Source: an uncultured Clostridia bacterium
GTDB taxonomy: Bacteria; Bacillota; Clostridia; Oscillospirales; Ruminococcaceae
Reading direction: 5' to 3'
Assembly: GCA_947627205.1 (NCBI GenBank)
Contig: CANQVE010000020.1
Location: 1 to 38,877, forward strand
Length of the DNA stretch: 38,877 nucleotides
Made by a program: the position numbers and the translations under genes. Shown one piece after another: positions 1,413 to 17,434 of the stretch (position 1 is the stretch's first letter; every line of letters starts with the position of its first letter). Under the pieces are notes generated by a model. The model made no database searches. It had not been told where the DNA came from and was given only the letters and a program-made list of their open reading frames with translations.

Positions 1413-2452
1413 TTTCTTTTACCTACTCTCCCGTTTAATATTGGAAATTTGTCATTTATAAATTTACATACAGGTAAATAAATAATGGCTAAAATAATTG
1501 CAAATATAAATGCTATAATGCTGTAAATATAGGTATTATCCAATTGAAGTCGTGTCATTATCATGCTGAAAGCAGTGGTCGCAATTACATGGGTTCCTAT
1601 TATAAATACTGTATTTGGTGCAAATTTTCTGAATACAGAGATCCGTTTATCAATAATTCTACATATTTCAAAGTATACTATACTTCCGGTGATCCCTGAA
1701 ACAATAAACATCCAGTATTTTCCCAAATGCATTCCATACATGGTGACATTATCATTTAATAATATTCCTGAAACAGCCCAAGCAGTAAAACAAATAAATA
1801 TTATAATAGTCTTAAAACATTTCTTGCACGAGCTAAACTTTAAGTCTATATCATGAAGTATATTTCCGAATACAAAAAAGCCGTAAGCGATTATCGCCTT
1901 ATGTACTCCGAAGAAATCAAAGAACAATTGGGACCTATATAATACATATCCTAACAAAAAGCTTAAAGCTGCATATAACCACTTCAAATGAAACTTTTTT
2001 GCCGTAACTGACAGCAGCCCTTCTATAGCCATGACTTCAAATATGACAATGAAGAACCAATATGCCAATCCTAATATAACGCTTCCCCTAAAGAAAAACA
2101 TATTCAAGAATATATTCGCAAGATCAAATTCATTTTTTCGGATCCTTAAAATTATATTGAGCGGTGAAAATATAAGCATTATCAAAAATGCAGGCAACAA
2201 AAGTCTTTCAGCTTTCCGCTTAATAAAAACGCCATAGGAGACATTCTCTTTCTTTGAAAAAACATATCCTGAAAGAATAAAAAACATTGGGACATGAAAA
2301 GAATATATTATCCTATTCATTATAGGTATATTGCTGAAGTATAAAAGATGACCGATTATAGTCAGTATAACTCCGATACCTTTAGCAGTATCTACCCAGG
2401 GCATGTACCCCCCCCCCGGAGTTAATTTACGACTTTTGTTATTTTCTTCCAT
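1409..2452 (-). CDS. Acyltransferase 3 family membrane protein with in-frame poly-G tract
   Basis: A 347-residue multi-pass membrane protein of the Acyl_transf_3 / fucose 4-O-acetylase type. After a 16-residue polar lead comes the family start WVDTAKGIGVILTIIGHLL with the conserved histidine, then SFHVPMFFILSGY and about ten membrane helices. Family members O-acetylate sugars of surface glycans on the membrane. The ATG at 2452 has a strong AAGGAG site 7 bp upstream. A run of ten G at codons 12-15 (PGGGY) sits between this start and the domain. At G10 the gene is open. Loss of one G gives a stop eight codons past the tract region (GGG TAG), and gain of one also stops within about a dozen codons (TGC TAA). 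An ATG directly after the tract could allow a weak restart. The gene therefore looks phase-variable and ON here. Confidence 0.88.
   Translation of the reverse strand: MEENNKSRKLTPGGGYMPWVDTAKGIGVILTIIGHLLYFSNIPIMNRIIYSFHVPMFFILSGYVFSKKENVSYGVFIKRKAERLLLPAFLIMLIFSPLNIILRIRKNEFDLANIFLNMFFFRGSVILGLAYWFFIVIFEVMAIEGLLSVTAKKFHLKWLYAALSFLLGYVLYRSQLFFDFFGVHKAIIAYGFFVFGNILHDIDLKFSSCKKCFKTIIIFICFTAWAVSGILLNDNVTMYGMHLGKYWMFIVSGITGSIVYFEICRIIDKRISVFRKFAPNTVFIIGTHVIATTAFSMIMTRLQLDNTYIYSIIAFIFAIILAIIYLPVCKFINDKFPILNGRVGKRK
2408..2417 (-). repeat. Poly-G (G10) homopolymer inside acyltransferase
   Basis: Ten consecutive C on the plus strand (G on the coding strand) lie 36 bp inside the acyltransferase gene. 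Such a run is far out of character for this AT-leaning operon. Runs of this length in coding regions slip during replication and act as ON/OFF switches in surface-glycan genes of other bacteria. Slippage here is inferred, not observed. Confidence 0.9.
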
Positions 2453-2463
2453 AATAACGCTCC

Positions 2464-3423
2464 TTATTGCAACAAGTTCTTGATGTTCATATATATTTTT
2501 TCCGAAGTCAGTCCATATTTATTTAAGAGATTTTCATATGTGTCAGGCTTAGGATATTCGTCGATTATGCCTATTTTTACAAGCTTTTGCGATTTTGAAT
2601 GTGCCGCCAGAACATCTGCTACAGCACTGCCTAATCCTCCTATTACGTTGTGTTCCTCTATACTTATGGCTAAACGTATATCAGAAAGACTGCATATCAT
2701 TTTTTCATCTATAGGTTTAATTGAGCTCATATTAACTACGGTGCAGCCTATACCATCATTTTTTAGCATCTCAACCGCCTTGACTGAACTGTAAACTTGC
2801 ATACCTGAGGCATATATAACAACATCTCTGCCTTCTTCTGCTACTATATCAGCTTTACCTATTCTGTAGTCGAAATCTTTATAATAAATGCGAGGAATAT
2901 TAATACCGCCTGTCAATCTTATATAAAAAGGGCCGTCCAGAACAGAGGCGGTTTCGATCATTTTTGCTGCTTCAAAACAATCGGCAGGTGAAAGTACCGT
3001 AATATTAGGAATTGCCCTCATCATGGCTATATCGTCAAGTGCCATAGAAGCAGCCCCTAAATTCCCAGATACCAATCCGGCGGATCCTCCTATAAGTTTA
3101 ATTCCTAAACCCATTTCGCCAATACTCATTCTTATTTGATCGGCTGCTCGCATGGTTATGAATGGAGCATATGCAACTCCAAAAGGAATAAAACCTTCAT
3201 GGCAAAGTCCACTTATTATTCCTATGAGACTTTGCTCTGCAATACTTACTTGCAGACCCGACCCGTTCATTTTCTGTATCAGTCCAAATCGGCTTCCTAC
3301 GTCCGCATAAGCAGCTATAATGCGAGGATCCTGCTTACTCAATTTCTCAAGCATAAATCCTACAATACCCCTGCTTCCCTGCGTGTGTATTCCGTTTATC
3401 ACTTTTTCATCATAATGCATCAT
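2464..3423 (-). CDS. Transketolase, C-terminal (pyrimidine/TK-C) subunit
   Basis: About 320 residues matching the second half of a split transketolase: the pyrimidine-binding domain with ADVGSRFGL, the catalytic glutamate region VSIAEQSLIGIISGL and GFIPFGVAYAPFITMRAADQIR, then the TK C-terminal domain ending near residue 319. Together with the adjacent N-terminal subunit it would move two-carbon ketol units between sugar phosphates or onto another aldehyde. I place the start at ATG 3423, which has GAGGT 7 bp upstream. Longer reading frames upstream lack a ribosome site. The gene overlaps the N-subunit by 14 bp, so the subunits are translationally linked. Its place inside a phosphonate and capsule operon points to a specialised role rather than the pentose phosphate pathway. 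Confidence 0.88.
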   Translation of the reverse strand: MMHYDEKVINGIHTQGSRGIVGFMLEKLSKQDPRIIAAYADVGSRFGLIQKMNGSGLQVSIAEQSLIGIISGLCHEGFIPFGVAYAPFITMRAADQIRMSIGEMGLGIKLIGGSAGLVSGNLGAASMALDDIAMMRAIPNITVLSPADCFEAAKMIETASVLDGPFYIRLTGGINIPRIYYKDFDYRIGKADIVAEEGRDVVIYASGMQVYSSVKAVEMLKNDGIGCTVVNMSSIKPIDEKMICSLSDIRLAISIEEHNVIGGLGSAVADVLAAHSKSQKLVKIGIIDEYPKPDTYENLLNKYGLTSEKIYMNIKNLLQ

Positions 3424-4246
3424 AATTGTTACCTCTGATTTCAAGCATAGCTTTTTTATAAAGCTCATCGGTCAGAACATTCTGATGCCATTCTGCCTCG
3501 TTTTCGGCAAAACTTATTCCCTTGCCTTTTATGGTATCTGCAATTACGGCATATGGTTTGCCATGACTTGTAAACGACAGCGCTCTGTCTATTTCGCTGA
3601 TGTTATGACCATCTATTGTAACGGCATTAAAGCCAAACGCCGACCATCTTTCTTCCATCATGTTCATTCTGTTTATGGTACAAGTAAATCCATCTATCTG
3701 TAAATTGTTTCTATCAACTAAAACTACAATATTGTCAAGCTTCAAATGTCCGGCGAGAGATGCAGCTTCCCATACAGAACCCTCGTCACACTCGCCGTCA
3801 CCTAAAACGATATACACTTTTGATGTATTGTTATTTTTCTTTTTAAGCGCCCAGGCAATACCCACAGCATATGCCAGTCCTTGTCCAAGACTTCCCGAAG
3901 AAAATTCAATACCATAGTTTATATTACGCACAGTCTGCTTATAGTAAATATTTCTTTCTCCAAGCAAGCTGCCTACCTCTGACAGATTTTTAATGATACC
4001 AACACGGTGCATAGCCGAATACATAGCTATTGAGCCCTGTCCTTTGCTCATTATCACTCTGTCTCTGAATTCGCTTTTTAAATCATTTATATCAAATCTG
4101 AGATGCCCATAATACAACACAGCAAGCAGTTCGACCAAGGACATACAGCCGCCTAAATGAGCTGCATTATTTCCTAAACGATAGCACATTTCAACTATAT
4201 CTTCTCTCATGCCATTAGCAATATCTGATATTTTATTGATGTCCAA
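3410..4246 (-). CDS. Transketolase, N-terminal (TPP/Mg-binding) subunit
   Basis: The first half of a split transketolase. Features are the early AAHLGGCMSLVELLAVLYYG segment with a family histidine, SGSLGQGLAYAVGIA, and the TPP/Mg motif GDGECDEGSVWEAA...NN. The start is uncertain: an ATG at 4264 has no ribosome site, while a TTG at 4246 has AAAGGAG with 8 bp spacing, and I favour the TTG. With either start the gene overlaps or abuts the nucleotidyltransferase upstream. It pairs with the C-terminal subunit that follows. The donor and acceptor cannot be read from the sequence. Possibilities include making a pentulose for an activated polyol, or extending phosphonoacetaldehyde by two carbons. 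Confidence 0.87.
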   Translation of the reverse strand: MDINKISDIANGMREDIVEMCYRLGNNAAHLGGCMSLVELLAVLYYGHLRFDINDLKSEFRDRVIMSKGQGSIAMYSAMHRVGIIKNLSEVGSLLGERNIYYKQTVRNINYGIEFSSGSLGQGLAYAVGIAWALKKKNNNTSKVYIVLGDGECDEGSVWEAASLAGHLKLDNIVVLVDRNNLQIDGFTCTINRMNMMEERWSAFGFNAVTIDGHNISEIDRALSFTSHGKPYAVIADTIKGKGISFAENEAEWHQNVLTDELYKKAMLEIRGNNYDAL

Positions 4247-4247
4247 A

Positions 4248-4961
4248 TCATTTTCTCCTTTCATGTGCTAAAATCGCCAAATAATCCTCATAAAAATCAA
4301 ATTCTCTCCAGAAATAGCCCTTGACATCTATGAAGTCGATTTTTTCCTTTTTCTGCATATTAAGAGAAATGACCATGTCTTCAAAATATGTATTAAATTT
4401 CTCGTTCTCAATATATTCTTCAATCGTTTTTTTGACTTCCGCGGTCTTTTCCTTTTTTATACAGGTTATACCCATATATTCAAAATTTCTTTTTTCGTAA
4501 GGAGTATCAGGTCCGTATTCAACTATTATCCCATTATTATCGACAGAGAAATAAAAATCTCCACTATCGATCCTGTCACCGGCGACTATCATAGACAGTG
4601 CTTTCTTTGAATCAGCAACCATATCAAGAAACTCTTTGGGATAATAAAGATCAGCACTTGTAAGCAGAATATCATCATCACCGAATTCTTCTCTTGCAAA
4701 CCAAAGACTTACTATGTTATTTGTGATAGAGTAAAATGGATTTTCATAGTACTTTACCGGAAGTCCTTTTAGTGACTCCTTGATATTCTCCTTTTTATAA
4801 CCGACACATACGACAACCTCGATATTTTTTTCAAGCATATTTATAACGCTGTGTCTTATTATCGGAGTACCATCTTCCAAGGGTAGTGTAGATTTAGGGA
4901 TTCCGTTTATCTTATCTGAAATGCGGCTTCCTTTTCCCGCTGCCATAATAAGTGCTTTCAT
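4248..4961 (-). CDS. LicC/PntC-like nucleotidyltransferase (probable cytidylyltransferase)
   Basis: A 237-residue single-domain nucleotidyltransferase. The N-terminal signature MAAGKGSRI is followed by the conserved lysine in PKSTLPL (K23), then the acidic DLYYP metal-site region. The C-terminal segment (YFEDMVISLN, then WREFDFYEDYLAI) is typical of LicC phosphocholine and PntC 2-aminoethylphosphonate cytidylyltransferases. It would activate a phospho- or phosphonoalcohol as a CDP or CMP derivative for transfer to a glycan. It has a perfect AGGAGGT site before ATG 4961 and lies 9 bp after the SDR. The PEP mutase protein in this operon already carries a similar domain, so there are two candidate activating enzymes, perhaps for two substrates. 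Substrate not assignable from sequence. Confidence 0.8.
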   Translation of the reverse strand: MKALIMAAGKGSRISDKINGIPKSTLPLEDGTPIIRHSVINMLEKNIEVVVCVGYKKENIKESLKGLPVKYYENPFYSITNNIVSLWFAREEFGDDDILLTSADLYYPKEFLDMVADSKKALSMIVAGDRIDSGDFYFSVDNNGIIVEYGPDTPYEKRNFEYMGITCIKKEKTAEVKKTIEEYIENEKFNTYFEDMVISLNMQKKEKIDFIDVKGYFWREFDFYEDYLAILAHERRK

Positions 4962-4970
4962 TTTTACCTC

Positions 4971-5696
4971 CTAACAGTAGCAATACCCACCGTCAATTCT
5001 GATGTTTGCACCATTTATATATTGGTTATTGATAATTTCCCAGCACAAGCTTGCAATTTCCTCCGGAGTTGCAAATCTGTGCAAAGCTATTTTGTCTTCG
5101 ATCCGCTTTCTGTGATCAGGCTGTTTTGTGCTTTGCCAAGGTGTTTTTACAAAGCTAGGTATTACAGCATTCACAGTAATCCTTTTAGGTTCAAAGAATT
5201 TTACAAGTTCTTTTACCATTTGATGAATGGCTGCCTTGGAAACCCCATATGCCAAAGACTGTGCATGAGGAAACACTCCACATATTGAACCAATAAATAT
5301 AATCCTACCTTTATCCTTAGGAATGTTATTAAACAGCCCCTGCGTGATATAAAAAGGTACATTAACATTGGTGTTCATAACATATTCCCATTTTTCCTTG
5401 GTGATTTCTTCAAATGGACTTTTATCTGTAACGGCAGAATTCAACACGAGGCAATCTATGCATGTTGCATTATCAAGAATTTCTTTAACAAACGCCTTAG
5501 CATTGTCATAGCTTGACAATTCACACTTTATGATTTTAAAGCGATTTTTCAGTTCTTTATGGGTTTCTGCAAATTCTTCTGCGTTCTTATCATCTTTGGC
5601 GTAATTAATAAACACGAACCAGCCTTCTCTCAAAAGCTTTTCTGCAATAGCTTTCCCTATACCTTTTGTTGAACCAGTTACAACAGCATATCTCAT
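4971..5696 (-). CDS. Short-chain dehydrogenase/reductase (FabG-like)
   Basis: A 241-residue classical SDR. It has the NAD(P)-binding TGSTKGIG (residues 7-14), the LNSAV variant of the NNAG motif near 85-89, catalytic S137, and YxxxK with Y150 and K154, and ends in the usual NGANIRIDGGY. It has a GGAGG-type site before ATG 5696 and follows the PEP mutase gene by 20 bp. In this context it may reduce phosphonoacetaldehyde, or a ketone made by the adjacent transketolase, or a sugar precursor. A FabG role in fatty acid synthesis is unlikely away from other fab genes. The family is certain; the substrate is inference. Confidence 0.85.
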   Translation of the reverse strand: MRYAVVTGSTKGIGKAIAEKLLREGWFVFINYAKDDKNAEEFAETHKELKNRFKIIKCELSSYDNAKAFVKEILDNATCIDCLVLNSAVTDKSPFEEITKEKWEYVMNTNVNVPFYITQGLFNNIPKDKGRIIFIGSICGVFPHAQSLAYGVSKAAIHQMVKELVKFFEPKRITVNAVIPSFVKTPWQSTKQPDHRKRIEDKIALHRFATPEEIASLCWEIINNQYINGANIRIDGGYCYC

Positions 5697-5716
5697 ATAA
5701 TTGCCTCCATGATGAA

Positions 5717-7726
5717 TTATCTTTCTTCGGGTATAAGCGTTATTATATCCTTAATGCTCATACATTTATCGTCACATTCTTTTGCTCTATGCGTTCTCAG
5801 AATGGTTTCCGCCGCATCTTTCATTGCCGGAAAGCCTGTCCTTGTCAATTGATTTGCATAGATAATTATGTTAGCCCCAAGTTCTTTCCATTCATCCTCA
5901 TAAACAGTGTTGAAAGAAGTAGGCACTAAGACAATAGGTGTTGACTTATCCTGCTCACGGAACTTAGCAATAAACTCCTTTATCTCGCTCGGATCTTTCT
6001 TACGGCTATGTATCATAATCGCGTCAGCTCCCGCTTTTACAAATGCAAAAGCACGGGTGAGAGCATCTTCCATACCTCTTTCGAGAATGAGGCTCTCAAT
6101 TCTCGCGCAAATCATGAAGTCCTTTGTCTTTTGAGCCTTTTTGCCTGCAGCGATCTTCGTACTGAAATTCTCTATGCTGTCCTGAGTTTGTTGAACTTCC
6201 GTACCAAACAAAGAATTTTTCTTCAGTCCTGTTTTATCTTCAATTATTATCATTGAAACGCCCATACGTTCAAGCGTTCTGACAGTATATACAAAATGCT
6301 CGGTCAGCCCGCCCGTATCACCGTCAAATATAATGGGCTTAGTCGTGACCTCCATAATGTCATCAATAGTGCGAAAACGGCTTGTCATATCAACAAGTTC
6401 TATGTCGGGCTTGCCCTTGGCTGTCGAATCGCAGAGCGAGCTTACCCACATTGCGTCAAACTGCCTTGAACCGCCGTCCTCGTGAACAATGGTTTTTTCC
6501 ACGATCAGACCTGTTATACCGCTGTGCGCTTCCATAGCGGTGACAAGCCCTTTCATTTCCAAAGCCTTTTTAAGCCTTGCACGTCGTACATCAGGCAAAG
6601 ACAGCTCTGACCTTGCCCTGTCCTCTATTGCTTTATATTCAGGATTATCCGAATAAGGATATTCCACCAGTTTACCACCGTAAGATGCCAGAACAGATGT
6701 TACTTCATCTCGGATAGGACGCTGAAAACCTGTCACCCAGTCATCGCCATGAACGACGATATCAGGCTTATATTTTTCAAGATTAGGTGTATAAGACATC
6801 GTCTCCTGATCGACGACCTTATATACTCCGGCTATATTTTCAAAGAGTTTTTTCCTTTCTTTTGCCGGAACGAGCGGAAAGCGTTTATATGAAGTGACCG
6901 CCTCGTCGGACAACACACCAATAATAAGTTTTCCGAGACGCTGTGCTTTTTTGATTATTGAAATGTGTCCGCCATGAATTATGTCTGTTGAAAAGCACAT
7001 ATACACGGTACGTTGCTCGACCTCTTTCAGCCTTGCACTTACAACTGCAAGATCATCCGGGTTATCTATTTCAGCACAAAGAAGGTTTCCTACGTCAAGA
7101 GCAGAAATATTCGCAGCGCCATTCAGCTCATTCAGCGCATTTTCCGCATAGACATTTCTCTTATCATTTTCGCAGAACTCAATTATCTTATCAAGCCAGA
7201 TCTTCCAATCTTCATTTTTAAGTTTATATAAGGCCTGCGCTGCCATTGATTCATTGAAAATATCCACGCCGACCTGCATAACCATTCCGTCGACAACTCT
7301 TGCCTTGAAATCTTTTTCCGGCAATGGAAGATTTGAAGATACTGTCATACATGAAACAGGCGATGCAGCTATACGGTCAAAAACTTCATTTTCAAAGACC
7401 AGATCTCCGTGCATAAGTATAATATCGTCATCAAGATAATCTTTCGCACAATAGATACTGTAAATATAGTTGGTCTTGTCATACAGCGGATTCTTTACAA
7501 AAGTAATATGTAACGGCAACTCAAGAGAATTACAATAATTTACAAGAACGCCGTCATAATATCCTGTTGTTATGACAACATCTTCTATACCCGCATCTGC
7601 AAGCTGTTTTAGTTGTCGTGAAAGAATCGTTTCACTTGGCGAAATTTCGGTCATGCACTTTGGGTGCTCTGAGGTCAGAGACCCCATACGAGTTCCAAGA
7701 CCAGAGTTGAGAATTATGGCTTTCAT
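5717..7726 (-). CDS. Three-domain PEP mutase: NTP transferase - TagD-like cytidylyltransferase - PEP phosphomutase
   Basis: A 669-residue fusion. Residues 1-235 form a LicC/PntC-like nucleotidyltransferase (MKAIILNSGLGTRMG, PKCMTEI). Residues about 238-370 form a second, unrelated nucleotidyltransferase of the glycerol-3-phosphate cytidylyltransferase type, with STDIIHGGH (HxGH at 251-254). Residues about 380-669 are a PEP mutase of the isocitrate-lyase superfamily carrying the diagnostic EDK-x5-NS motif (EDK at 496-498, NS at 504-505). PEP mutase converts phosphoenolpyruvate to phosphonopyruvate, the gate to C-P bond chemistry; the decarboxylase at 297-1412 pulls it forward. The start is ATG 7726, with AAAGGA 8 bp upstream, rather than an earlier in-frame codon without a site. 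The 157 bp before it separate this phosphonate module from the flippase and may hold a secondary promoter, but no strong match was seen. Confidence 0.9.
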   Translation of the reverse strand: MKAIILNSGLGTRMGSLTSEHPKCMTEISPSETILSRQLKQLADAGIEDVVITTGYYDGVLVNYCNSLELPLHITFVKNPLYDKTNYIYSIYCAKDYLDDDIILMHGDLVFENEVFDRIAASPVSCMTVSSNLPLPEKDFKARVVDGMVMQVGVDIFNESMAAQALYKLKNEDWKIWLDKIIEFCENDKRNVYAENALNELNGAANISALDVGNLLCAEIDNPDDLAVVSARLKEVEQRTVYMCFSTDIIHGGHISIIKKAQRLGKLIIGVLSDEAVTSYKRFPLVPAKERKKLFENIAGVYKVVDQETMSYTPNLEKYKPDIVVHGDDWVTGFQRPIRDEVTSVLASYGGKLVEYPYSDNPEYKAIEDRARSELSLPDVRRARLKKALEMKGLVTAMEAHSGITGLIVEKTIVHEDGGSRQFDAMWVSSLCDSTAKGKPDIELVDMTSRFRTIDDIMEVTTKPIIFDGDTGGLTEHFVYTVRTLERMGVSMIIIEDKTGLKKNSLFGTEVQQTQDSIENFSTKIAAGKKAQKTKDFMICARIESLILERGMEDALTRAFAFVKAGADAIMIHSRKKDPSEIKEFIAKFREQDKSTPIVLVPTSFNTVYEDEWKELGANIIIYANQLTRTGFPAMKDAAETILRTHRAKECDDKCMSIKDIITLIPEER

Positions 7727-7883
7727 ATGATATATCCTTTCGTAATAAAACATTTAATTGATTTGATCGAAATTAAATATGAATAATTCCATTTTTCTAC
7801 AATAAACTCTTTGTAGGAAAAACTTATATATGGAGAATAAGTTGCTTACGAAAAATTGCTTGTGTTTTAATACATAACCATTA

Positions 7884-9296
7884 TTATTTCATTGATTTGA
7901 TAAAATGTATCGACTCGGTAATATCTTTACGCTTGATGATGAGATAAATGACGTAGCATGCGGCGTATATCAACATTCCTACAAGTCCGAAATACCAGTT
8001 GCAGATTATGAATGCGATGGTCATTGCAAGTTCGATAAATATGTCCTTGACAACATTAACTGAAATTTTTGTTGACAGAATGACTTCGCTTAAAATACAG
8101 CGGAAGATTAGAACGATGAGAATTGAAATTATAGCCGCGGTGACACTGTTCAAAACGAGCGTTGAAACGAGCGTCAGCACAACGCTTAATGCCAACGCTG
8201 CTATGTTGCATTTCATCATAAGATTTTCAAGACGCAAGGTTTTGTAATATGTATTCACAAGCATTGACATTTTGGATTCATATGCGCACATAGGCAACAG
8301 TATAGCCGCATACCTCAAACTCTCAGCGTAATGCGGCAGCCACATTGACAACAACTTGTAAGCGGGATAATAGAAAATGATACCGCCGTAAATGACACCC
8401 ATCAGAATAATACGCATAATTCTGTATATTTTAGGTAGATTGTCAGCGTTTGACCGTCTTAAAGTCGGATACATAACAACTGCTATCGCGTTTATTGCTG
8501 TCATAACCATATTTGAAATGCTTAGCGTCAATGAAACTTTTCCGAATGTGGAAATATCCCAATGATTTTCTATACCGAACCTTACCACTCCAATAATCAA
8601 CATGCTGCACAAAGACGCAAACATCAGCTTTATTCCTGCGGATATATTCTCTTTTACTTCCGGCACAGCTGTTTTGAACGGTACGGCTTTAGAAAAAACA
8701 ATATCTCTGCAATAAAATAGGCCTATGAATAGAGAAATAAATTTTGCGATGACATCAGATAGTATGATAAGATAAAACTTCCGGTAGCCTACTATCATCA
8801 GCAGTAACACAAAGACGATTACAAAGATTTTTTCTGAAACAGTTACTATTGCATATTCCTTGATTCTTGCCGTTGCCTGTAAAATGAATGTGACAAACCA
8901 GCGAAGGCACATTCCCACTGCAACTATACAGGTGCACCCAATTACATACTGTTTATTGCCGTCAGTAACAATAAACATAAATATCGCAAAAAGGAGAGAA
9001 TAGAATATGATCTCAAACAAGCCCAACATTCTGAACTGAGCGGAATACAATGGTTTATTCAGGTCGTTGTAATATTTTCCACCCTCACGGAGATAAATAC
9101 CATCGCACCAGCCAAAATATGACACACCCACATAGCTTATGTAAAATGTATACAGTTGGTAATATCCATAATCTTCTACACCAACAAGCTTTGGAACAAT
9201 CAATACCATGATCGCACCTATCAATGTTGTAAGAAGATTGGAACCCACCGTATATGACATATTTTTGACAAAATCAATTATCTTCTTTTTCGCCAT
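7884..9296 (-). CDS. Oligosaccharide flippase (Wzx-type, MOP superfamily)
   Basis: About 470 residues with some 12-14 predicted membrane helices, starting with the family pattern NMSYTVGSNLLTTLIGAIMVLIVPKLVGVEDYGYY. It would flip lipid-linked repeat units to the outer face for Wzy polymerisation. The ATG at 9296 is preceded by AAGGAG placed unusually close (1 bp); an in-frame TTG at 9323 is an alternative start. Either way it overlaps the upstream glycosyltransferase gene. Together with the polymerase at 11367-12662 it shows a Wzx/Wzy-dependent route rather than an ABC exporter. Substrate specificity unknown. Confidence 0.87.
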   Translation of the reverse strand: MAKKKIIDFVKNMSYTVGSNLLTTLIGAIMVLIVPKLVGVEDYGYYQLYTFYISYVGVSYFGWCDGIYLREGGKYYNDLNKPLYSAQFRMLGLFEIIFYSLLFAIFMFIVTDGNKQYVIGCTCIVAVGMCLRWFVTFILQATARIKEYAIVTVSEKIFVIVFVLLLMIVGYRKFYLIILSDVIAKFISLFIGLFYCRDIVFSKAVPFKTAVPEVKENISAGIKLMFASLCSMLIIGVVRFGIENHWDISTFGKVSLTLSISNMVMTAINAIAVVMYPTLRRSNADNLPKIYRIMRIILMGVIYGGIIFYYPAYKLLSMWLPHYAESLRYAAILLPMCAYESKMSMLVNTYYKTLRLENLMMKCNIAALALSVVLTLVSTLVLNSVTAAIISILIVLIFRCILSEVILSTKISVNVVKDIFIELAMTIAFIICNWYFGLVGMLIYAACYVIYLIIKRKDITESIHFIKSMK

Positions 9297-10311
9297 TCTC
9301 CTTTTTTTCTCTCTCCTCTTCAAGCTCGATTATTTTGTCTATAAGATGTGTAGGCGAAAATCTTCCGTCGTAGTGATAATCTACAGGAATTCGCTCCTTT
9401 ACCCACTCCCAGTCGATATCCTCAGGCTTTTCAAAAACGTGAATGTAGTCGGGGTTGTAGAATGGAAGATTTACAATGTTTTTATTGTTTGTCAGCAGTT
9501 TTTTGTTGTAGCAAATTGCTTCATGATAGCGATTTGTTGCTCCACTTTGACCTGTCGATAAAACTTCTAAAATACAATTGCTTCTAATTACTTCTTTAAC
9601 TACTTCTGGATATTGTATATATTGATTATAAATGATCTCGTTCTTGAATTTCTGATCCTTATTAGGAACATTTATTAATCTATAATTTGCTTTCAAACAA
9701 TATCTTTTCATATCAGCGTAAATTCGATGAAATAAACCTGCCCCGCCTCTTATTGCGGCATTGGCAGCCAAATATATATCATTTTCAATCATACAAGGTT
9801 TACTGTCATATATAATTGAATACGGTGCATCTTCATAGATAAAGTTATACTTTTTAACATCAGACGGATCAAACGAAAAAATATAGTCAAATTTAATTAC
9901 ATCAGCATATTTACGTGCTGATGCAGACATTCTATCACTTTCCCACGGATCAAGCATAAGCAGAATAAACTTTACATTATATTCTTTTTTTATTTTTAAC
10001 AGATAAGTATAATCTATCGGCCATAATGACGACCCTAATAAAATAACATAATATTTTAAATTATAATCCCAATGTATTTCTCTTAATGAACATCCCCATA
10101 CATTTTTAAACGGAAGATTAATCTGGCTATTTATTTTTTTACTTAAATGAACTTTTCTGATCCCTTTTATAATCGGATTTCTGATATTTTTTAAAAAACC
10201 TTTTAAAACAACCGCTCTTTCATCAGAATACAAATCATAAAACAAATAAGGTGAACTTCCTATTTTATTTATTACAAATATGAATTGTTCCGATTTTATT
10301 TTTTTTATCAT
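9274..10311 (-). CDS. Putative glycosyltransferase (GT-B like)
   Basis: A 345-residue soluble protein. It has a middle segment FILLMLDPWES followed by FDYIFSFDPSD, and a later LEVLSTGQSGATNRYHEAI and LLTNNKNI region. These resemble the nucleotide-sugar side of GT-B glycosyltransferases found in capsule and lipopolysaccharide loci (an acidic EAI-type helix near residue 260). It sits in a run of polysaccharide genes between a sulfotransferase and the flippase, which supports the role. The C-terminus is a charged Glu/Lys-rich tail. I do not recognise a specific family member, so sugar and linkage are unknown. Start ATG 10311 has a weak GGTGA site. Confidence 0.6.
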   Translation of the reverse strand: MIKKIKSEQFIFVINKIGSSPYLFYDLYSDERAVVLKGFLKNIRNPIIKGIRKVHLSKKINSQINLPFKNVWGCSLREIHWDYNLKYYVILLGSSLWPIDYTYLLKIKKEYNVKFILLMLDPWESDRMSASARKYADVIKFDYIFSFDPSDVKKYNFIYEDAPYSIIYDSKPCMIENDIYLAANAAIRGGAGLFHRIYADMKRYCLKANYRLINVPNKDQKFKNEIIYNQYIQYPEVVKEVIRSNCILEVLSTGQSGATNRYHEAICYNKKLLTNNKNIVNLPFYNPDYIHVFEKPEDIDWEWVKERIPVDYHYDGRFSPTHLIDKIIELEEEREKKENGEKEDN

Positions 10312-10339
10312 GAACTTTCACCATCCTCATACTAATATG

Positions 10340-11347
10340 TCATACCGGAAAATCATAAAGATATTCCGTTAAATGTTCTTCAATATACTTTATATCATCT
10401 TTGTACTGAGGGTATTTAACTTTTAAATTCGTATTCTTAATAGATATTTCGGGATTTAAATGCGTCTTTGGAGCTGTATGTCTTTTAGGATCTATCCCTA
10501 CAAATTCCATAATTTTCTTACCTGTTTCTTCATAATTATATATCCAATCCTCAAAGTGTACTAAAAATACCTTTTCGACATCATATACTTCTCTTTTTCT
10601 GTGTTCACGAATAATCCTATACCATTCACAAAAATCATGTACATTCTTGGCAGGAATTATTCCTGAACGAAGCTCTACTTTCTCAAACAAATAAACGTCT
10701 CGTGGATCACGTTCAGAAACTATAACCTTTATATCATCAAAATAATTCATATAACTGCTTATGTTAGACGCCGGCAAAAGCTGGTCAACCATGAGATATT
10801 CCGAGTTATTTTTGTTAAGGCAATTTAGTATCTTACCAATATATTCTTTTGTATATTTATAAAATGTTTCCTTGTCTATAGCCGAATAATACGACTGAGT
10901 ATGAAAAAGCTTTAAGAGATTGGTTCCATACGCTTTAGTAAAACAACTAGTAAGTTTATGCACTGCCCCATTAAGATAGTGAAATAATTTACCTTTGTCG
11001 ATAGTATCATATAGCCACCAACAATCTGTTTTAAGCTCAGTAATATTGTTTACATATTCTTTTGTATATTTCATAAAGGCATCACCCATATAATATTTAT
11101 ATCCTTTTATAAACAAATCACCATTTAAATATTTTGCATATTCAAAATATTTTTTTATAGCATATCCTGAATTATGCCTGTCATTCATTTCTATGAGTTT
11201 ATATTCCAAATCACGTATTCCGTTCGGGTCAAATATAAACCTAAACTCATAATCATCGGCGCAATAGCAATTATCAAACTCTGAAAAGAAGTCTGTAACA
11301 GCGCTTGAACCGGTTGCGATATAACTAGCACACGTAATAATTTTCAT
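10340..11347 (-). CDS. Sulfotransferase-like protein
   Basis: A 335-residue protein with the two PAPS-binding hallmarks of sulfotransferases: a 5'-phosphosulfate loop near the N-terminus (SYIATGSSAVTDFF, residues 8-21) and a 3'-phosphate motif SERDPRDVYLF (from residue 211). A downstream VHFEDWIYNYEETGKKIMEFVGI segment is also common in the family. It would transfer sulfate from PAPS to a sugar hydroxyl of the growing repeat unit in the cytoplasm. It lies 19 bp after the polymerase gene and 28 bp before the putative glycosyltransferase. PAPS-making genes are not in the window. A related transferase using another activated group cannot be excluded. Confidence 0.75.
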   Translation of the reverse strand: MKIITCASYIATGSSAVTDFFSEFDNCYCADDYEFRFIFDPNGIRDLEYKLIEMNDRHNSGYAIKKYFEYAKYLNGDLFIKGYKYYMGDAFMKYTKEYVNNITELKTDCWWLYDTIDKGKLFHYLNGAVHKLTSCFTKAYGTNLLKLFHTQSYYSAIDKETFYKYTKEYIGKILNCLNKNNSEYLMVDQLLPASNISSYMNYFDDIKVIVSERDPRDVYLFEKVELRSGIIPAKNVHDFCEWYRIIREHRKREVYDVEKVFLVHFEDWIYNYEETGKKIMEFVGIDPKRHTAPKTHLNPEISIKNTNLKVKYPQYKDDIKYIEEHLTEYLYDFPV

Positions 11348-11366
11348 AAAATTCCCCTATTATAAT

Positions 11367-12662
11367 TTACGCTTTATTTAGCCGTAAATCTGTTATTTCT
11401 CTTCGTTGTGTATGTCCTACCATATAGTAAGCCGCTCCATAATATATCCATATGCTTAAAAATGAAAATTCAGGAACGCTTATCATCATGATGATATTAT
11501 GTATAATTATGTTTATGAACAACACTGACGCCTCTGTTGTTTGAATTTTAAATAGTTTTATTGTTAAAACAATAACAGGTATTAAATAAAGAATTAATCC
11601 CAAAATCCCAATAGAACATAACCATGTTGAAAGTAGATCATAAGAACGTACAGTTCCAAATCCGGTTGGAATAATATTACTAAAAGCAAGTTCAAAATGA
11701 TATTTAAAAGCATAAAGTCTGGCACTTCCCGAAACACCTATGCCATTTATCTTGTCAGTTAAAGTGTCAATCCCCGACATCATACTTGAACTAAAATATA
11801 TTACAAATATTGCCCCTATTACTAAAAAAATTATTTTCAAGAAAAGATTATTTTTCGATATTTTTTTGTTTGATTTCAAACTTATAACGAATATAAGAAA
11901 TATTGACAAGAGTATTCCTATTACTCCGGATGATGAATTGCTATCTAATGTTACAATAATAAACAGTAATGAAAATATGAGATACTTTAATTTAAATCCA
12001 GATAGGAACCGATACAAGTAACCGCCAAAAAGAGGAGCACAATATAAAGAAAGCATTGATGCCTCAAAAAATGTTCCGGATATCCTTGCTTGACCATAAT
12101 TATAGCCAACGTGAACGGCATTTCTCAAATATGTATTCACAAATGTCAAAGGCAAAACATGCTGCAAAAGTGCAATTGATAAAGAGAGAACATAAGATAT
12201 TTCCAAACATTTTTCAATAGCTTTAAGGGATATTTTATTTGCTATAAGTAAAGAATTGCACATAATACATGTAAGCAGCCCGATGAACAAATATCCGTAT
12301 TGTGTAATCTGTTGAAAATTAAATTCAACATAGGTATTTAATCCATCGACATTATGAACAATTGTCTTTCCATGTAACAAAGAAAACGGTATCGTAATCA
12401 AACACCATATAGCAAAAAAATACATGCACTTATTTATTGAAACTGAGATACCATTATTGTACGTATACATACAAAACTTAATTAAGCATATTAAAAAAGC
12501 AATATGCATAACTAAAATACTATTATTGTTGATATTAAAAGCAGCAATAGTTGTCAACGATGATGAAATAATTAAAAATTTAATTGCATTATCAATTTTG
12601 AAAACTAAAAACACTCCTGCTAAAATTATAATCCAAAAGATAGTTCCATCATTTATTTGCAT
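11367..12662 (-). CDS. O-antigen/capsule polymerase (Wzy-like, O-antigen ligase family)
   Basis: A 431-residue, strongly hydrophobic protein with about 11-12 membrane helices and a large extracytoplasmic loop after the middle. The segment ARISGTFFEASMLSLYCAPLF is the ARxxGxFxE-type loop seen in Wzy and WaaL-like proteins, and the late SARLYAFKYHFELAFSNIIPTGFG region (arginine plus GxG) is also typical. It would polymerise flipped repeat units outside the membrane. It is 14 bp downstream of a glycosyltransferase gene. Sequence identity in the family is low, so the call rests on topology, loop motif and context. The gene is among the most AT-rich of the operon, suggesting transfer with the glycosyltransferase block. 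Confidence 0.8.
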   Translation of the reverse strand: MQINDGTIFWIIILAGVFLVFKIDNAIKFLIISSSLTTIAAFNINNNSILVMHIAFLICLIKFCMYTYNNGISVSINKCMYFFAIWCLITIPFSLLHGKTIVHNVDGLNTYVEFNFQQITQYGYLFIGLLTCIMCNSLLIANKISLKAIEKCLEISYVLSLSIALLQHVLPLTFVNTYLRNAVHVGYNYGQARISGTFFEASMLSLYCAPLFGGYLYRFLSGFKLKYLIFSLLFIIVTLDSNSSSGVIGILLSIFLIFVISLKSNKKISKNNLFLKIIFLVIGAIFVIYFSSSMMSGIDTLTDKINGIGVSGSARLYAFKYHFELAFSNIIPTGFGTVRSYDLLSTWLCSIGILGLILYLIPVIVLTIKLFKIQTTEASVLFINIIIHNIIMMISVPEFSFLSIWIYYGAAYYMVGHTQRREITDLRLNKA

Positions 12663-12676
12663 AATGACATAACCTC

Positions 12677-13909
12677 CTATTTGGATAAAATACTTTCATA
12701 TATTCTAATCAAATTATCTAAATGCGTTGACTCTAAGTATAACTTTCTATCAATTTTCTTACAATTATCTGAAAGCTTTTTAATAATTTCGTTGCTTTTA
12801 CAATATTCTATACAATTTATCAATTTTTCTTCGTCGCCTATTTCATATACTAATCCTGTATTTTCTGTTACAATCTTGTCTGCTACTCCACACTTTGTCG
12901 GCACAATACAAGGTATTGCGTAAGAACACTGTAACTCTAAAACATTTAGTGGTCCTGTTTCTATCCAATATGAAGTAACTATTAGACATCTTGCTTTTTT
13001 TATGTAAGGAAGCATTTGTTCAGACGTTAGCCAACCGCGAAATGTAATATTAGGATACTTATCACGCAAGCTTTCTAATTCTTCTCCATCTCCAATAACA
13101 TCAGCTTCCACTCCTGCTGATGACACCGCCTTACAAAACATATCTACGCCTTTTTCAGACGTAAGCCTTCCAATAAAAAGAAATTTTGAATTATTTGAAG
13201 GATTTACATCTTCAAACGGTTGAATTTCTACAGGATTTTGTAAAATATATTTATCACATTTTATTTTAAAGTGACTATTTATAATATTTTCTTCCATGCC
13301 TGTTAGACAAATCAAAAACAAGTCATTAATCTTCAATAAATGTTTTAATATCAAATGTCGTATGCTACGATACAATTTTTGTAGGTATGATCTTTTATCG
13401 CAATTTGTAACCAAGCACCTAAATAATGACGTATTTGATTGGCAAAGCATATGTTTTTTATAATTGTAAAATATCTTCACAGGGCAAAAAACTTCATAAT
13501 CATGACACGTTAAAGCGATTTTGAAATGCCTTTTTGATGTAATGCTAAACAAAGCTTGAGAAAGAGAAAGCGACCAACTATGAAAATGGACTATTGTATC
13601 CTTTGGGCTAAACTCCTTAATAACATTATCAAATTCTATCGTAGCCTTTTTATTCCACAAGCCTTGAATTGCTCCTATAAATTTACCCTTAAATGTTTTA
13701 AGATGATTTTTTAATTCATCTTGAACTAAACATACAACTTTAACGCCTGCATCAACAAGTCTATTATCGACAGGTCCAACACCGCAAAAATATACTACAT
13801 TGATACCATTTTCAGCTAAGGTTATAGCTTCAGTTAAAGCTATCTTCGCTGCACCTCCATTTATATAACAATGATCGCATACAATTATCACGTTATTTAC
13901 AAGTCCCAA
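12677..13909 (-). CDS. Glycosyltransferase family 4 protein
   Basis: A 410-residue GT-B glycosyltransferase. The N-terminal acceptor domain begins VIIVCDHCYINGGAAKIAL. The donor domain begins with FIGRLTSEKGVDMFCKAV, then ADVIGDGEELESLR, and ends in the donor-binding region TGPLNVLELQCSYAIPCI (GT4 ExE-like: the usual EGLPLVILEA is changed to TGPLNVLEL). The start is a TTG at 13909 with AGGGTGA upstream. It is separated from the orphan glycosyltransferase fragment by 77 bp without a gene. It transfers a sugar from a nucleotide donor to the lipid-linked repeat unit; sugar unknown. Confidence 0.85.
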   Translation of the reverse strand: MGLVNNVIIVCDHCYINGGAAKIALTEAITLAENGINVVYFCGVGPVDNRLVDAGVKVVCLVQDELKNHLKTFKGKFIGAIQGLWNKKATIEFDNVIKEFSPKDTIVHFHSWSLSLSQALFSITSKRHFKIALTCHDYEVFCPVKIFYNYKKHMLCQSNTSLFRCLVTNCDKRSYLQKLYRSIRHLILKHLLKINDLFLICLTGMEENIINSHFKIKCDKYILQNPVEIQPFEDVNPSNNSKFLFIGRLTSEKGVDMFCKAVSSAGVEADVIGDGEELESLRDKYPNITFRGWLTSEQMLPYIKKARCLIVTSYWIETGPLNVLELQCSYAIPCIVPTKCGVADKIVTENTGLVYEIGDEEKLINCIEYCKSNEIIKKLSDNCKKIDRKLYLESTHLDNLIRIYESILSK

Positions 13910-13986
13910 AATAAATCACCCTAAAAGTTTGCAACATAAAATTCCAGTTTACAAAAATTTTTTATTATAATTATCCTACCTATAAT

Positions 13987-14370
13987 TTAAATTAAACCAA
14001 AATAGTAATTAATTAAATATTCAACTTTTTGATTTATACTAAACCCACACTCAGTCAAGCATTTTTTATTGTCTTCTCTTATATTTTCAAAGCAAAGGTA
14101 AATTCTTTTTGCCCATTCCTCAGCACCATCACCAATACTCAAAAACTCCGCATTTTCCGTCATTTTCGTTTCCTTTGTCATCTTGTCGGATAACAAACAC
14201 GGAAGTCCGTTTGCCTGAGCTTCTACTCCTACCACCGGCAAACCTTCATATCTTGACGGCAACACAAAAATATCCATAGCATTATAAAGCCTGTGAACGT
14301 CATTTCTGTTGCCGAGAAATAGTATATGCTCCCGTATACCTTTTAGCTTGTCATTTTCCTGATTATTCAT
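13987..14370 (-). CDS. Orphan C-terminal half of a GT4 glycosyltransferase (truncated)
   Basis: A 127-residue frame containing only the C-terminal donor-binding half of a GT4 enzyme: ILFLGNRNDVHRLYNAMDIF, VLPSRYEGLPVVGVEAQANGLPCLLSD. No N-terminal acceptor domain precedes it. It overlaps the end of the frameshifted glycosyltransferase at 14363-15452 by 8 bp and closely resembles that enzyme's own C-terminal half (same LGNRxxVxRLYxAxDIFVxPSRYEGL core), but differs at many positions, so it is not a fresh copy. It could be a decayed glycosyltransferase, a separate donor-domain subunit, or an alternative 3' cassette for recombination. An ATG at 14370 is present without a convincing ribosome site. 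Confidence 0.7.
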   Translation of the reverse strand: MNNQENDKLKGIREHILFLGNRNDVHRLYNAMDIFVLPSRYEGLPVVGVEAQANGLPCLLSDKMTKETKMTENAEFLSIGDGAEEWAKRIYLCFENIREDNKKCLTECGFSINQKVEYLINYYFGLI

Positions 14371-15452
14371 AGGATAACCCTCCGTAAAATTCTGTTAATT
14401 TATCTGCCTGAACAGAAATATCATATTTTTCCGAATAAACAAATGGTCTATCATAATTTTTGTTAGTAAGAATTTTTTCTGCCCAGCTACCTACCCCGTC
14501 CTCCAAAAATAATTGTTCTGTATTTGAAGTCATGATTGCGTCTTTCGGCACAGTTTCCGAAATAATTGTTTTTATTCCACACACCTGTGCTTCTATTGCC
14601 GCTATTCCCAATCCCTCATATCTTGATGGGAAAACGAATATATCTATCGCTTGATAAAGCCTCTCAACATTTGTCCGATTACCTAAAAGAATTACCCCCC
14701 CCCGATAATTTCTTAATTTTTTCTTCAATCTTTTCTCTGTCCGGACCGTCACCGACCAACATAAGCACCGCGTTCGGGTTTTGTTTATAAACTTCCTCAA
14801 AAATATCAACCAGAAACTCCTGATTTTTCTGATAGCAAAACCGTCCGACATGACCTATGACAAACTTTCCCTCAAGTCCTAACTCTTTGCGGACTTCATT
14901 TCGGACATTTTCATCAAATTTAAACTTGTCCAGATCTATAGCATTATTGAAAATTGTGACCTCGCCACGCTCCATAGATTTCTTTCCGAACAGCCATTCT
15001 CCCGCGTATTCTGAGCAAGCAGCGTAATTCGTGGCATAAACTTTCGCAAACGGACGAAGCATATATTTCAAAATGTTTTTCTTTGTTTCACCTTTTGCCG
15101 CTGTCGAATGATTGTGGGCAATTCTCACCGGAACACCTGCGCGTTTTGCTGCGTAAAGCGGGAAAACGCTAAGCGTGTTTATGTGTGAATGTACAATTTT
15201 GTACTTGTTTTCTTTGAACAATTTTATCAGCGCAGGTATGTATTTGTTCAGTTTCTGATACGGCGGGACAATGAAAATTCGTCCGCCGAAACTTTCTATT
15301 TCTTCGCGCGGAATTATCGTCGAATCCTCATCAACTATGAAATCGAACTGAACTTTTTCTCGATCAATGTGTCGATAATAATTCATTACTACGGCCTCGA
15401 CCCCGCCGTTCATCATCTTACCGACAACTTGTGCTACACGAATCGGTTCCAA
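14363..15452 (-). CDS. Phase-variable GT4 glycosyltransferase, frameshifted at a G9 tract (OFF)
   Basis: This is the first gene after the operon promoter. The 5' part (TTG start 15452, GAGGTG site 5 bp upstream) encodes a GT4 acceptor domain (MEPIRVAQVVGKMMNGGVE) and the start of the donor domain (IGHVGRFCYQKNQEFLVDIF, VLMLVGDGPDREKIEEKI). It runs into a nine-G tract at 14695-14703 and stops at 14679. The rest of the donor domain (VILLGNRTNVERLYQAIDIF, FPSRYEGLGIAAIEAQVCG) continues in another frame to the stop at 14363. With G8 the two parts join seamlessly (KKLSGGVILLGNR) into a normal 362-residue enzyme. G9 gives a 257-residue truncated protein, and G10 gives an immediate TAA. The break lies exactly at the homopolymer, which argues for slipped-strand phase variation rather than decay. 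A sequencing error in the tract is the main alternative. Confidence 0.85.
14695..14703 (-). repeat. Poly-G (G9) homopolymer at glycosyltransferase frameshift
   Basis: Nine consecutive C on the plus strand (G on the coding strand) lie in the linker between two conserved segments of the GT4 donor domain. The reading frame changes exactly here. Only this run and the G10 run at 2408-2417 reach this length in the window, and both are in the same operon. Confidence 0.9.
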
Positions 15453-15627: not shown

Positions 15628-15717
15628 GTAACAACAATTTATTGCAAGCACTTTAACTGATAATGTCAAAATTAATAACGCCGATTTATCGTCGAATACC
15701 ATAACTACAGAAAATTT

Positions 15718-15744
15718 TTTCGCAAAAGTAAATCATTGACGAAA
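15718..15744 (+). repeat. Left recombinase core site (27-bp inverted repeat, IRL)
   Basis: The site divides into an 11-bp half-site TTTCGCAAAAG, a 5-bp centre TAAAT and an 11-bp half-site CATTGACGAAA. The half-sites are imperfect inverted copies of each other (TTTCG...CGAAA), as expected for a tyrosine-recombinase core. It matches the reverse complement of 17065-17091 at 25 of 27 positions. Confidence 0.85.
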
Positions 15745-15769
15745 AAACCGATGTACAAAATGGTATAAT
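15736..15769 (+). promoter_or_regulatory. Possible promoter for the recombinase gene
   Basis: A perfect TATAAT at 15764-15769 is preceded by TGG (extended -10). A TTGACG at 15736-15741 is too far away (22 bp) for a standard -35 and lies within the left recombinase site. If used, recombinase binding at the left site would overlap the upstream promoter contacts, giving autoregulation. Two TGTACA palindromes (15752-15757, 15794-15799) flank the -10. Confidence 0.45.
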
Positions 15770-15841
15770 CAGAAGTGAAAAAACGGGAAAGTGCTGTACA
15801 CTTAGTTTAGTCGCAGATTTATTAAACTTATAAACAATTGA

Positions 15842-15870
15842 ATTATATCACAAATTATAAAGGTTGTCAA
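15842..15870 (-). promoter_or_regulatory. Consensus promoter facing the polysaccharide operon
   Basis: On the minus strand TTGACA, a 17-bp spacer and TATAAT match the housekeeping sigma-factor consensus at 12 of 12 positions. The -35 is at 15865-15870 and the -10 at 15842-15847. Transcription would start near 15835 and cross the left inversion site to reach the first glycosyltransferase at 15452, leaving a leader of about 380 nt. It is inside the predicted invertible segment, so its direction would be switchable. Confidence 0.85.
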
Positions 15871-15935
15871 TAGGTTATTGCAAACAGCACATAAATTTCC
15901 GTAAAAATTTGTGAATTATCTACAAGGAGGGCATT

Positions 15936-17015
15936 ATGGTGGGATTTAATATTTATCATCGCAAGGACAATCGCTGGGAGGGGCGTATTAAAAAGGACGG
16001 AGAGAGCGGCACAAAACGCTCTTTCATTTATTTTTTTGCCAAAACCAAAGAAGACGTTCAGTCAAAAATGATAAGTTTCAAGCTTAATAATAAAACTAAC
16101 AATACAAAATGCGATACGCCGCTGAAATGCATTTACAACGAATGGCTACAAAGCATTCAGCTCAGAACAAAAGAATCCACTCGTGCTAATTATCAACTTA
16201 AATGGAATAATCATATTTATCCAGCTTTCGGCGAGCTTGCCATTTCGGAAATAACTACAAATGATATTTATGATTTTATTCATATAAAGCAGAACAATGG
16301 ACTTTCTGACAGGTATATTTCGGATATTGTCGTGCTGATGAAAAGCATTTTTAAATTTGCAGTTAAGCATTATCACATAGAAGATCCACTTGACGGGATT
16401 GTTATGCCTAAGAAAAAGCCTGCGGAAATTAAAATTTTAGATGACAATAAAGATGACCTTAAAAACTATTTGCTAGAGAATTTAAACACTAAAAATCTCG
16501 GCATAATGCTTGCTATGACAACGGGCATAAGAATAGGCGAGCTGTGCGCATTGCAGTGGAAAGATATCGACTTTGAAAAACGGACGCTGACCGTCAGGAA
16601 AACTATCCAGAGGATACAAACGCACTGTAAAACGAACAAGACAAAACTAATCATGACCGAGCCTAAAAGTGAAACATCTAAGCGTTGTATACCATTGCCC
16701 GAAAGTGTTATAAGTTTGCTAAGCAGGTTCAAGGGAAACGACGATTTTTACATATGTTCGGGTAAGGAAAAGCCTGTTGAACCGAGGACGATGCAATATC
16801 GTTTTGCAAAAATCCTCAAAAACGTAAATTTGCCGTCAGTGCATTTCCACGCACTCCGTCATATGTTTGCGTCAGAGTGCGTAAAGCTCGGATTTGACAT
16901 TAAGGCGCTCAGCGAGCTGCTCGGACATTCAAGCGTCCGCATAACACTTGAACGTTACGTTCACTCCGACTTTTCAATTAAACAGGAATACATGAAACGA
17001 ATTGCTTTTGCGTGA
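15936..17015 (+). CDS. Tyrosine-type site-specific recombinase (integrase family)
   Basis: A complete 359-residue tyrosine recombinase. Residues about 1-55 form an AP2-like arm-binding region (RKDNRWEGRIKKDG), about 60-160 the SAM-like core-binding domain, and about 170-359 the catalytic domain. The catalytic set is visible: R199 (TTGIRIGEL), K244 (EPKSETSKR), H305 and R308 (HALRH), H331 (LGHSSV) and the nucleophile Y341 (LERYVH). The ATG at 15936 has AGGAGG 5 bp upstream. The gene is alone, with no excisionase, phage or conjugation genes. It is bracketed by two inverted core-type sites and sits just upstream of a capsule operon, so a DNA-inversion role is more likely than integration of a mobile element. 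Confidence 0.93.
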   Translation: MVGFNIYHRKDNRWEGRIKKDGESGTKRSFIYFFAKTKEDVQSKMISFKLNNKTNNTKCDTPLKCIYNEWLQSIQLRTKESTRANYQLKWNNHIYPAFGELAISEITTNDIYDFIHIKQNNGLSDRYISDIVVLMKSIFKFAVKHYHIEDPLDGIVMPKKKPAEIKILDDNKDDLKNYLLENLNTKNLGIMLAMTTGIRIGELCALQWKDIDFEKRTLTVRKTIQRIQTHCKTNKTKLIMTEPKSETSKRCIPLPESVISLLSRFKGNDDFYICSGKEKPVEPRTMQYRFAKILKNVNLPSVHFHALRHMFASECVKLGFDIKALSELLGHSSVRITLERYVHSDFSIKQEYMKRIAFA

Positions 17016-17064
17016 GGTTTGCTACGACTTTTTAGATCCTTGAAAATTTAATATTTTACCCCTG

Positions 17065-17091
17065 TTTCGTCAATGATTTACCTTTACGAAA
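17065..17091 (-). repeat. Right recombinase core site (27-bp inverted repeat, IRR)
   Basis: Read on the minus strand this site is TTTCGTAAAGG, TAAAT, CATTGACGAAA. It differs from the left site at two positions only, both in the outer half-site. The asymmetric centre (TAAAT against ATTTA on the plus strand) fixes opposite orientation, which predicts inversion, not excision. It lies 50 bp past the recombinase stop codon. Confidence 0.85.
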
Positions 17092-17130
17092 TATCTAAGA
17101 GCATTGTAGTGCCAGCTGAAATAAATAAAA

Positions 17131-17163
17131 AAAGAGGTAAGAATTCAAAATTCTTACCTCTTT
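17131..17163. terminator. Terminator-like hairpin after the recombinase cassette
   Basis: AAAGAGGTAAGAAT and its exact reverse complement form a 14-bp stem with a TCAAA loop. A-run on one side and T-run on the other make it plausible in both directions. It ends transcripts from the recombinase gene and would stop the operon promoter if the cassette were inverted. Confidence 0.7.
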
Positions 17164-17238
17164 GCTTGTATAAAACCTATTTGCAGTTCTTTTCAAACGT
17201 TGTTTCTCTTAATAACGTTATCTCGCCCCAACCCCCTG

Positions 17239-17320
17239 CCCCCTTCCCCGAAGGGGAAGGGGGAGAGAGCGGGGCGCCGGCGCGCCCCGCGCCCTGCCTC
17301 GCGGGGACTTCGTCCCCGCG
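17239..17320. repeat. GC-rich block of three consecutive hairpins
   Basis: Three perfect stems follow one another: an 11-bp stem with GAA loop (17239-17263), a 9-bp stem GCGGGGCGC (17269-17290) and a 9-bp stem CGCGGGGAC with TTC loop (17300-17320). The block is almost all G and C in an AT-leaning genome. It lies between two AGAGGTAAGA hairpins in the 464-bp gap between the recombinase and GH9 genes; no credible gene is present in that gap. It looks like a dispersed palindromic repeat unit. Function unknown. Confidence 0.7.
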
Positions 17321-17406: not shown

Positions 17407-17434
17407 AGAGGTAAGACCATAAGATCTTACCTCT
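17407..17434. terminator. AGAGGTAAGA hairpin downstream of the GH9 gene
   Basis: AGAGGTAAGA and TCTTACCTCT form a 10-bp perfect stem with an 8-nt loop, 46 bp past the stop of the leftward cellulase gene. The stem sequence is shared with hairpins at 17131-17163 and 32299-32330. There is no strong T-run in the leftward direction, so termination efficiency is uncertain. Confidence 0.5.

Follow-up and report, generated by a model that had tools for sequence, protein, structure and literature searches.

A probable self-contained invertible promoter cassette, with its own integrase-type tyrosine recombinase, beside a polysaccharide operon of an uncultured Clostridia bacterium

The window, a stretch of 38,877 nucleotides, contains a 1,374-bp cassette (15718-17091, repeats included) in which a tyrosine recombinase gene and a promoter are bracketed by inverted repeats (Table 1). 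The preliminary description had reported two 27-bp repeats in opposite orientation, and they are found at the same coordinates: 25/27 positions are identical (93% complementary), with 1,320 nt between the arms. Their flank-comparison score of 21 lies beyond all 400 dinucleotide shuffles (maximum 16, one at 15 or above, none at 21 or above), and no comparable repeats surround the 28 other tyrosine recombinases used as controls, none of which scored above 12. The proposed division of each site into 11-5-11 holds as one possible reading, but centres of 5 and 7 are not separable: over 60 sites, odd centre lengths fit best, and a centre of 9 fits less well. The window contains no tRNA genes, and a scan of 14500-18500 against Rfam gave no matches.

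Table 1. Features of the cassette and its surroundings in the window.
Feature	Coordinates	Strand	Basis
Polysaccharide operon, predicted to be read by the outward promoter in the assembled orientation	297..15452	-	ORF list, profile matches
Poly-G tract G10 near the start of an acyltransferase-like ORF (1409-2452)	2408..2417	-	
Poly-G tract G9 interrupting the first glycosyltransferase ORF	14695..14703	-	Same length and interruption in L089
Left 27-bp recombination site (inverted repeat arm, putative)	15718..15744	+	Near-identical pairs in 7/7 close cassettes, window included
TGGTATAAT, possible extended -10 of the recombinase's own promoter	15761..15769	+	Kept in the 7-cassette alignment; good -35 absent
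Outward promoter TTGACA-17-TATAAT with TG before the -10 (extended -10), towards the operon	15842..15870	-	12/12; also 12/12 in 7 close cassettes
Tyrosine recombinase, 359 aa, within the cassette	15936..17015	+	Phage_integrase (E 1.4e-29) and Phage_int_SAM_3 above cut-off; conserved catalytic residues
Right 27-bp recombination site (inverted repeat arm, putative)	17065..17091	-	Near-identical pairs in 7/7 close cassettes, window included
Hairpin beyond the right site	17131..17163	.	Terminator by the looser scan, minus strand only; missed by the stricter scan
Hairpin	17407..17434	.	Terminator by the looser scan, both strands; beyond the 250-bp reach of the stricter scan

The recombinase gene inside the repeats is complete, as originally claimed, with an intact ORF encoding an integrase-type tyrosine recombinase with a SAM-like N domain. 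Residues R199, K244, H305, R308, H331 and Y341, which we take to be the catalytic residues, are invariant across 24 aligned members. The solved structures nearest by sequence are the ‘Int protein’ entries 6en0, 6emy and 6emz (E 3e-28 with the family profile); 6en0 and 6emz are presumably the Tn1549 integrase. As regards an arm-binding N-terminal domain, residues 1-65 have no Pfam match at 0.001. Membership of the serine recombinase family of Hin, which works with helper factors, was rejected, as Pfam assigns the enzyme to the tyrosine recombinase family Phage_integrase and a resolvase match is absent. Assignment to the small Fim-type tyrosine DNA invertases was likewise rejected, as the NCBIfam models PRK09871 and PRK09870, whose cut-offs are 222 and 221 bits, score 26.7 and 23.5.

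As in invertons, the inverted repeats surround a promoter. It points outward at the polysaccharide operon, confirming the preliminary description, and is the sole 12/12 match in 14500-18500; the best match in 1-15720 reaches 11/12. The operon encodes glycosyltransferases, proteins with weak Wzy-like and Sulfotransfer matches, a flippase-like protein that falls slightly short of its cut-off, a PEP mutase fusion (TIGR02320) and a phosphonopyruvate decarboxylase (TIGR03297). The last two exceed their cut-offs, and a phosphonate-bearing surface polysaccharide is the likely product; within 297-7753 they occur together with split transketolase-like genes. Overall the genes resemble a polysaccharide operon, for which the narrower name given earlier, capsule operon, may be apt. 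Terminator-like sites within the operon are about as frequent as chance predicts, with 8 on the two strands together where 7.9 are expected.

Two of the six poly-G tracts of at least nine residues in this genome (G000) fall within the operon. The others are located at C25 1644-1653 and 19145-19153, in or beside polysaccharide genes, at C28 19035-19043, in a histidine-kinase-like ORF, and at C21 331-341, just outside an ORF. After the G9 tract the first glycosyltransferase ORF resumes in another frame and is followed by a second C-terminal glycosyltransferase half (14679-15452, 14363-14851, 13987-14370); the interruption at the tract is common to the window and L089 of genome G040. The placing of tracts in or beside polysaccharide genes suggests slippage-type phase variation as a possible second layer of control.

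Phage_integrase matches mark seven places in the genome (54 contigs, 2.25 Mb), two of which are self-bracketed cassettes: that of the window and L088, on contig C23 (4063-5435). The L088 recombinase is 94% identical to that of the window, and both L088 sites are identical to the window's left site. Each of these cassettes holds two copies of the site core, and the genome has no others beyond these four. Among 43 genus genomes, 5 have the core, with 13 occurrences in all, of which 12 lie in cassettes and one is a lone match in G036; the reversed core, used as a control, has no matches in the same genomes. The search for the same sites in related genomes that had been proposed returned near-identical pairs in all seven close cassettes, that of the window included, and the arrangement named as refuting, with recombinase and promoter kept and repeats absent, was not seen in the cassette's six close relatives.

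Both orientations, as in invertons, occur between related genomes at two orthologous loci. At locus A, the right flank of the window (17065-20346) runs parallel to G041 C23 1497-4715 (92%), and the cassette is antiparallel (window 15718-17094 against G041 C23 1523-136); contig C26 of G031 is arranged as in G041, at 85%. At locus B, L088 and L089 have a 7.7-kb right flank in common (96%) with the cassette reversed between them, and L090 is oriented as L089, so that the second cassette is opposite to its counterparts in G031 and G040. Judged from gene order, the window cassette, L089 and L090 would be ON relative to their polysaccharide genes and L088 would be OFF. L091 and L092 also appear OFF; their contigs stop just past the left site, where a phosphohexomutase-like ORF starts. 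Each of the two genomes with two such cassettes, G000 and G031, has one facing its operon and one facing away, although two cases prove nothing; cross-control between paired cassettes is a testable idea. Matches to 20432-20952 of the window, upstream of the GH9 gene, overlap at ∼150-bp steps in L091 and L092, which suggests a tandem repeat.

These observations point to a self-contained invertible promoter cassette, to which we assign a probability of roughly 0.85. The recombinase encoded inside would act on the two 27-bp inverted sites and invert the 1.37-kb segment. As assembled, the strong promoter on the minus strand would read across the left site and transcribe the polysaccharide operon (ON); in the inverted orientation it would point rightward to the hairpins and the convergent end of the GH9 gene (OFF). 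Flipping would presumably continue in a population, giving both expression states. The self-contained ON/OFF switch of the preliminary description is thereby supported, by the opposite orientations at two loci and by the repeats and outward promoter conserved across the recombinase clade.

The same layout extends well beyond the close relatives. Within the genus, all 14 more distant recombinases (L062-L075) are bracketed by repeats scoring at least 17. At the family level, a threshold of E 1e-45 gives 115 matching places in 68/297 genomes. Among 40 regions drawn from the best 50 of these places, 36 have repeats (score of at least 15) enclosing cassettes of 1.24-1.59 kb. Five of the best 50 were already covered (two in the own genome, one each in G041, G009 and G019), and five were omitted (both G069 places, G278 C71, G180 C9 and G253 C14), including L153 (G069 C11), with a repeat score of 16, and L156 (G278 C71, at a contig end), which gave none. 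The other 4/40 regions (L175, L182, L196, L201) have no repeats at threshold 15, although L196 and L201 show shorter matches.

A set of 60 cassettes was assembled from the seven close ones, 17 others (L123-L135, L067, L139, L141, L016) and the 36 family regions; it admits repeat-bearing regions only, and L015 was dropped with a score of just 14. In a tree of 91 rows (58 of the 60 cassettes, two with short ORFs being left out, plus 33 others), all 58 repeat-bearing rows fall in one 65-row branch (98/87), and 26 of the 33 other rows lie outside it. Support for a narrower 64-row branch is weak (84/49), and parts of the tree are unsure owing to long branches.

Throughout this set the outward promoter is favoured: the best match averages 10.7/12 outward, 9.0 inward and 8.7 in shuffles, with the outward score higher in 48 cassettes, tied in 11 and lower in 1. 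At least 11/12 positions match outward in 35/60 cassettes and on the inward strand in 1/60; in L124 and L125 the best outward match does not exceed chance. Within 250 bp, strict terminator-like sites are enriched on the non-target side (12/49 with enough flank, against 2/52 on the target side; p 0.003). This count covers 52 of the 60 cassettes, L125 and seven with genes facing away on both sides being omitted and L088, L089, L091, L092 and L132 being assigned by hand. Its cases are not independent, since three of the 12 are locus-B orthologues, and neither are the terminator and promoter counts in general, since near-copies are included. The window has no strict terminator within 250 bp on its own non-target side; at locus B a terminator-like hairpin begins 3 bp beyond the site on the non-target side, and further out lies an MMPL gene with a 12/12 promoter in front of it. 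Simple neighbour rules class 33 cassettes as OFF, 14 as ON, 9 as facing genes on both sides and 4 as unclassified. The excess of OFF over ON (p 0.008) counts against the switch reading; it could mean that OFF is the usual state or that the promoter is misread for some cassettes.

The genes beside the cassettes differ widely in function. Early genes encode glycosyltransferases (L174, L067, L168), a Wzz-kinase (L180), UDP-galactopyranose mutase (L088), LytTR response regulators (L190, L194, L189), AgrB (L131), a dockerin protein (L198), a LamG protein (L172) and a protein kinase (L129); further agr-type neighbours were recognised by eye from protein starts (L130, L170, L193, L195, L199, L200, L202 and L184 among others). 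Most of the agr-type-adjacent cassettes L131, L189, L190, L193, L194, L195, L199, L200 and L202 face away from these genes (OFF); L189 (and L184) face them. At L172 (G180 C48), two large divergent surface-type ORFs flank the cassette, their first ∼180 bp nearly alike on both sides, as if inversion picked between two proteins.

Named plasmids contribute 20 records with a match. Ruminococcus albus 7 pRUMAL02 has three long recombinase matches, one with perfect 20-bp repeats (cassette at 197850-199146), one with imperfect repeats (21/24, by eye) and one with none at threshold. A Vescimonas fastidiosa MM35 plasmid has perfect 29-bp repeats, with an annotated dockerin protein further upstream. In Enterococcus, one cassette of an E. 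raffinosus plasmid precedes an HTH gene and accessory Sec genes, cassettes of an E. gilvus plasmid stand before WxL proteins (repeat scores 12 and 17), and the repeats of an E. faecalis plasmid agree at 24/25 positions (by eye). Recombinase matches also occur in 91 phage records; of 80 loci returned from viral contigs, 15 were tested and two (L226, L235) had repeats scoring at least 15.

Such occurrences at differing loci, on plasmids and in phage records would also suit a small mobile element, namely a transposon with a tyrosine recombinase and terminal inverted repeats that came to lie upstream of operons, its promoter incidental and its orientation set at insertion. Operons and cassettes do occur in differing combinations, and a tRNA cluster comes after the GH9 gene in G040 and G037, where no cassette was seen. 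However, the same flank and the same sites occur with the cassette in opposite orientations, the outward promoter is conserved, target genes start near the cassette in 56/60 cases by the neighbour rule, and the site core is present in the own genome solely as cassette pairs. These features make the transposon reading improbable.

In G040, a window-like operon start (95%) adjoins the locus-B right flank. The phosphohexomutase gene next to the locus-A cassette of G031 and G041 corresponds in G000 to a gene on contig C25, on which no Phage_integrase place was found. Operons sit at different switch loci across genomes. The cassettes of the window and L088 are themselves sisters in the tree (99/88), with identity ranging from 81 to 100% per 200 columns, which suggests exchange between loci. 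We consider it somewhat more probable than the contrary that integrase-type tyrosine recombinases with an outward promoter and their own inverted sites form, in Oscillospiraceae relatives and perhaps in Enterococcus, a widespread family of portable one-gene phase switches, plasmids included, upstream of unrelated operons (for polysaccharides, agr-type quorum sensing, accessory Sec and surface proteins, dockerin proteins among them), and that whole polysaccharide operons have been exchanged between switch loci. A lineage could therefore change its phase-variable operon.

A cassette that changed orientation in the past and no longer flips in this strain is a still less probable account. The arms differ at 2/27 positions, this assembly shows no direct sign of mixed orientation, and two comparable pairs of E. 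raffinosus strains (L307/L325, L321/L326) each hold one orientation, which also weighs against the switch reading in general; against the fossil account, the ORF is intact with its catalytic residues invariant, the centre is common to both arms and relatives retain the sites and promoter. A contig end lies within 250 bp outside a site in 6/60 cassettes, which might fit mixed orientations. Least probable of all is a conjugative element or phage that left its integrase behind, beside chance or unrelated repeats: the nearest solved structures and SAM-like domain of the enzyme are of integrase type, but the repeats are far above chance, inverted and conserved along with the gene.

Among known systems, the Hin switch of Salmonella is the closest in layout, with the recombinase gene and promoter in one invertible segment whose inversion joins the promoter to an operon or not (PMC5903667, PMC11868660). 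Hin is a serine recombinase (PMC11868660) and the window enzyme a tyrosine recombinase, so the label ‘Hin-like’ in the preliminary description is true of the layout only and fails for the enzyme class. In Bacteroides fragilis, promoters before polysaccharide operons (capsule promoters) also invert, but PMC5903667 describes one serine master recombinase, Mpi, for at least thirteen regions, whereas here each cassette has its own tyrosine recombinase and site. The RecV switches of Clostridioides difficile and hCom2 inverton group 139 are clostridial invertible DNA with tyrosine recombinases near by; the enzymes described there are located elsewhere or near the segment, unlike the internal gene of the window (PMC5903667, PMC11892184). 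Two group-139 examples given by coordinates span ∼260 bp, too short for a 1-kb gene (PMC11892184). Fim-type switches invert a promoter segment by tyrosine recombinases (PMC9993118, PMC5763102), but fimS is 314 bp and the enzymes are encoded outside it. Conjugative-element integrases (PDB 6en0/6emz) are the best solved relatives of the enzyme, but in the window the enzyme's own gene is flanked by inverted sites. The cassette is thus like Hin in layout without belonging to the Hin enzyme family, an integrase-type variant of the inverton kind. The cassette family was not found described among the best-matching papers of the open-access full-text literature, outside which lies subscription work such as the inverton survey that Jiang and colleagues published in 2019.

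The chief interest of the cassette is that it appears modular and widespread. If so, gut Clostridia would have a common modular bet-hedging device, recognisable by a single gene with its repeats; agr-type quorum sensing and dockerin proteins would be predicted to be phase-variable; and recombinase-site pairs would be individually testable, including in cultured Ruminococcus albus 7.

Two minor observations concern the assemblies. In the 3.7-kb contig L012, the two ends are inverted copies of one another, and so are the flanks next to the sites; the contig is possibly chimeric, or else a true rearrangement, and its cassette alone was used. Just beyond the window cassette, a GC-rich intergenic stretch of ∼130 bp (17169-17298) has many copies in the own and close genomes and is perhaps a small interspersed repeat.
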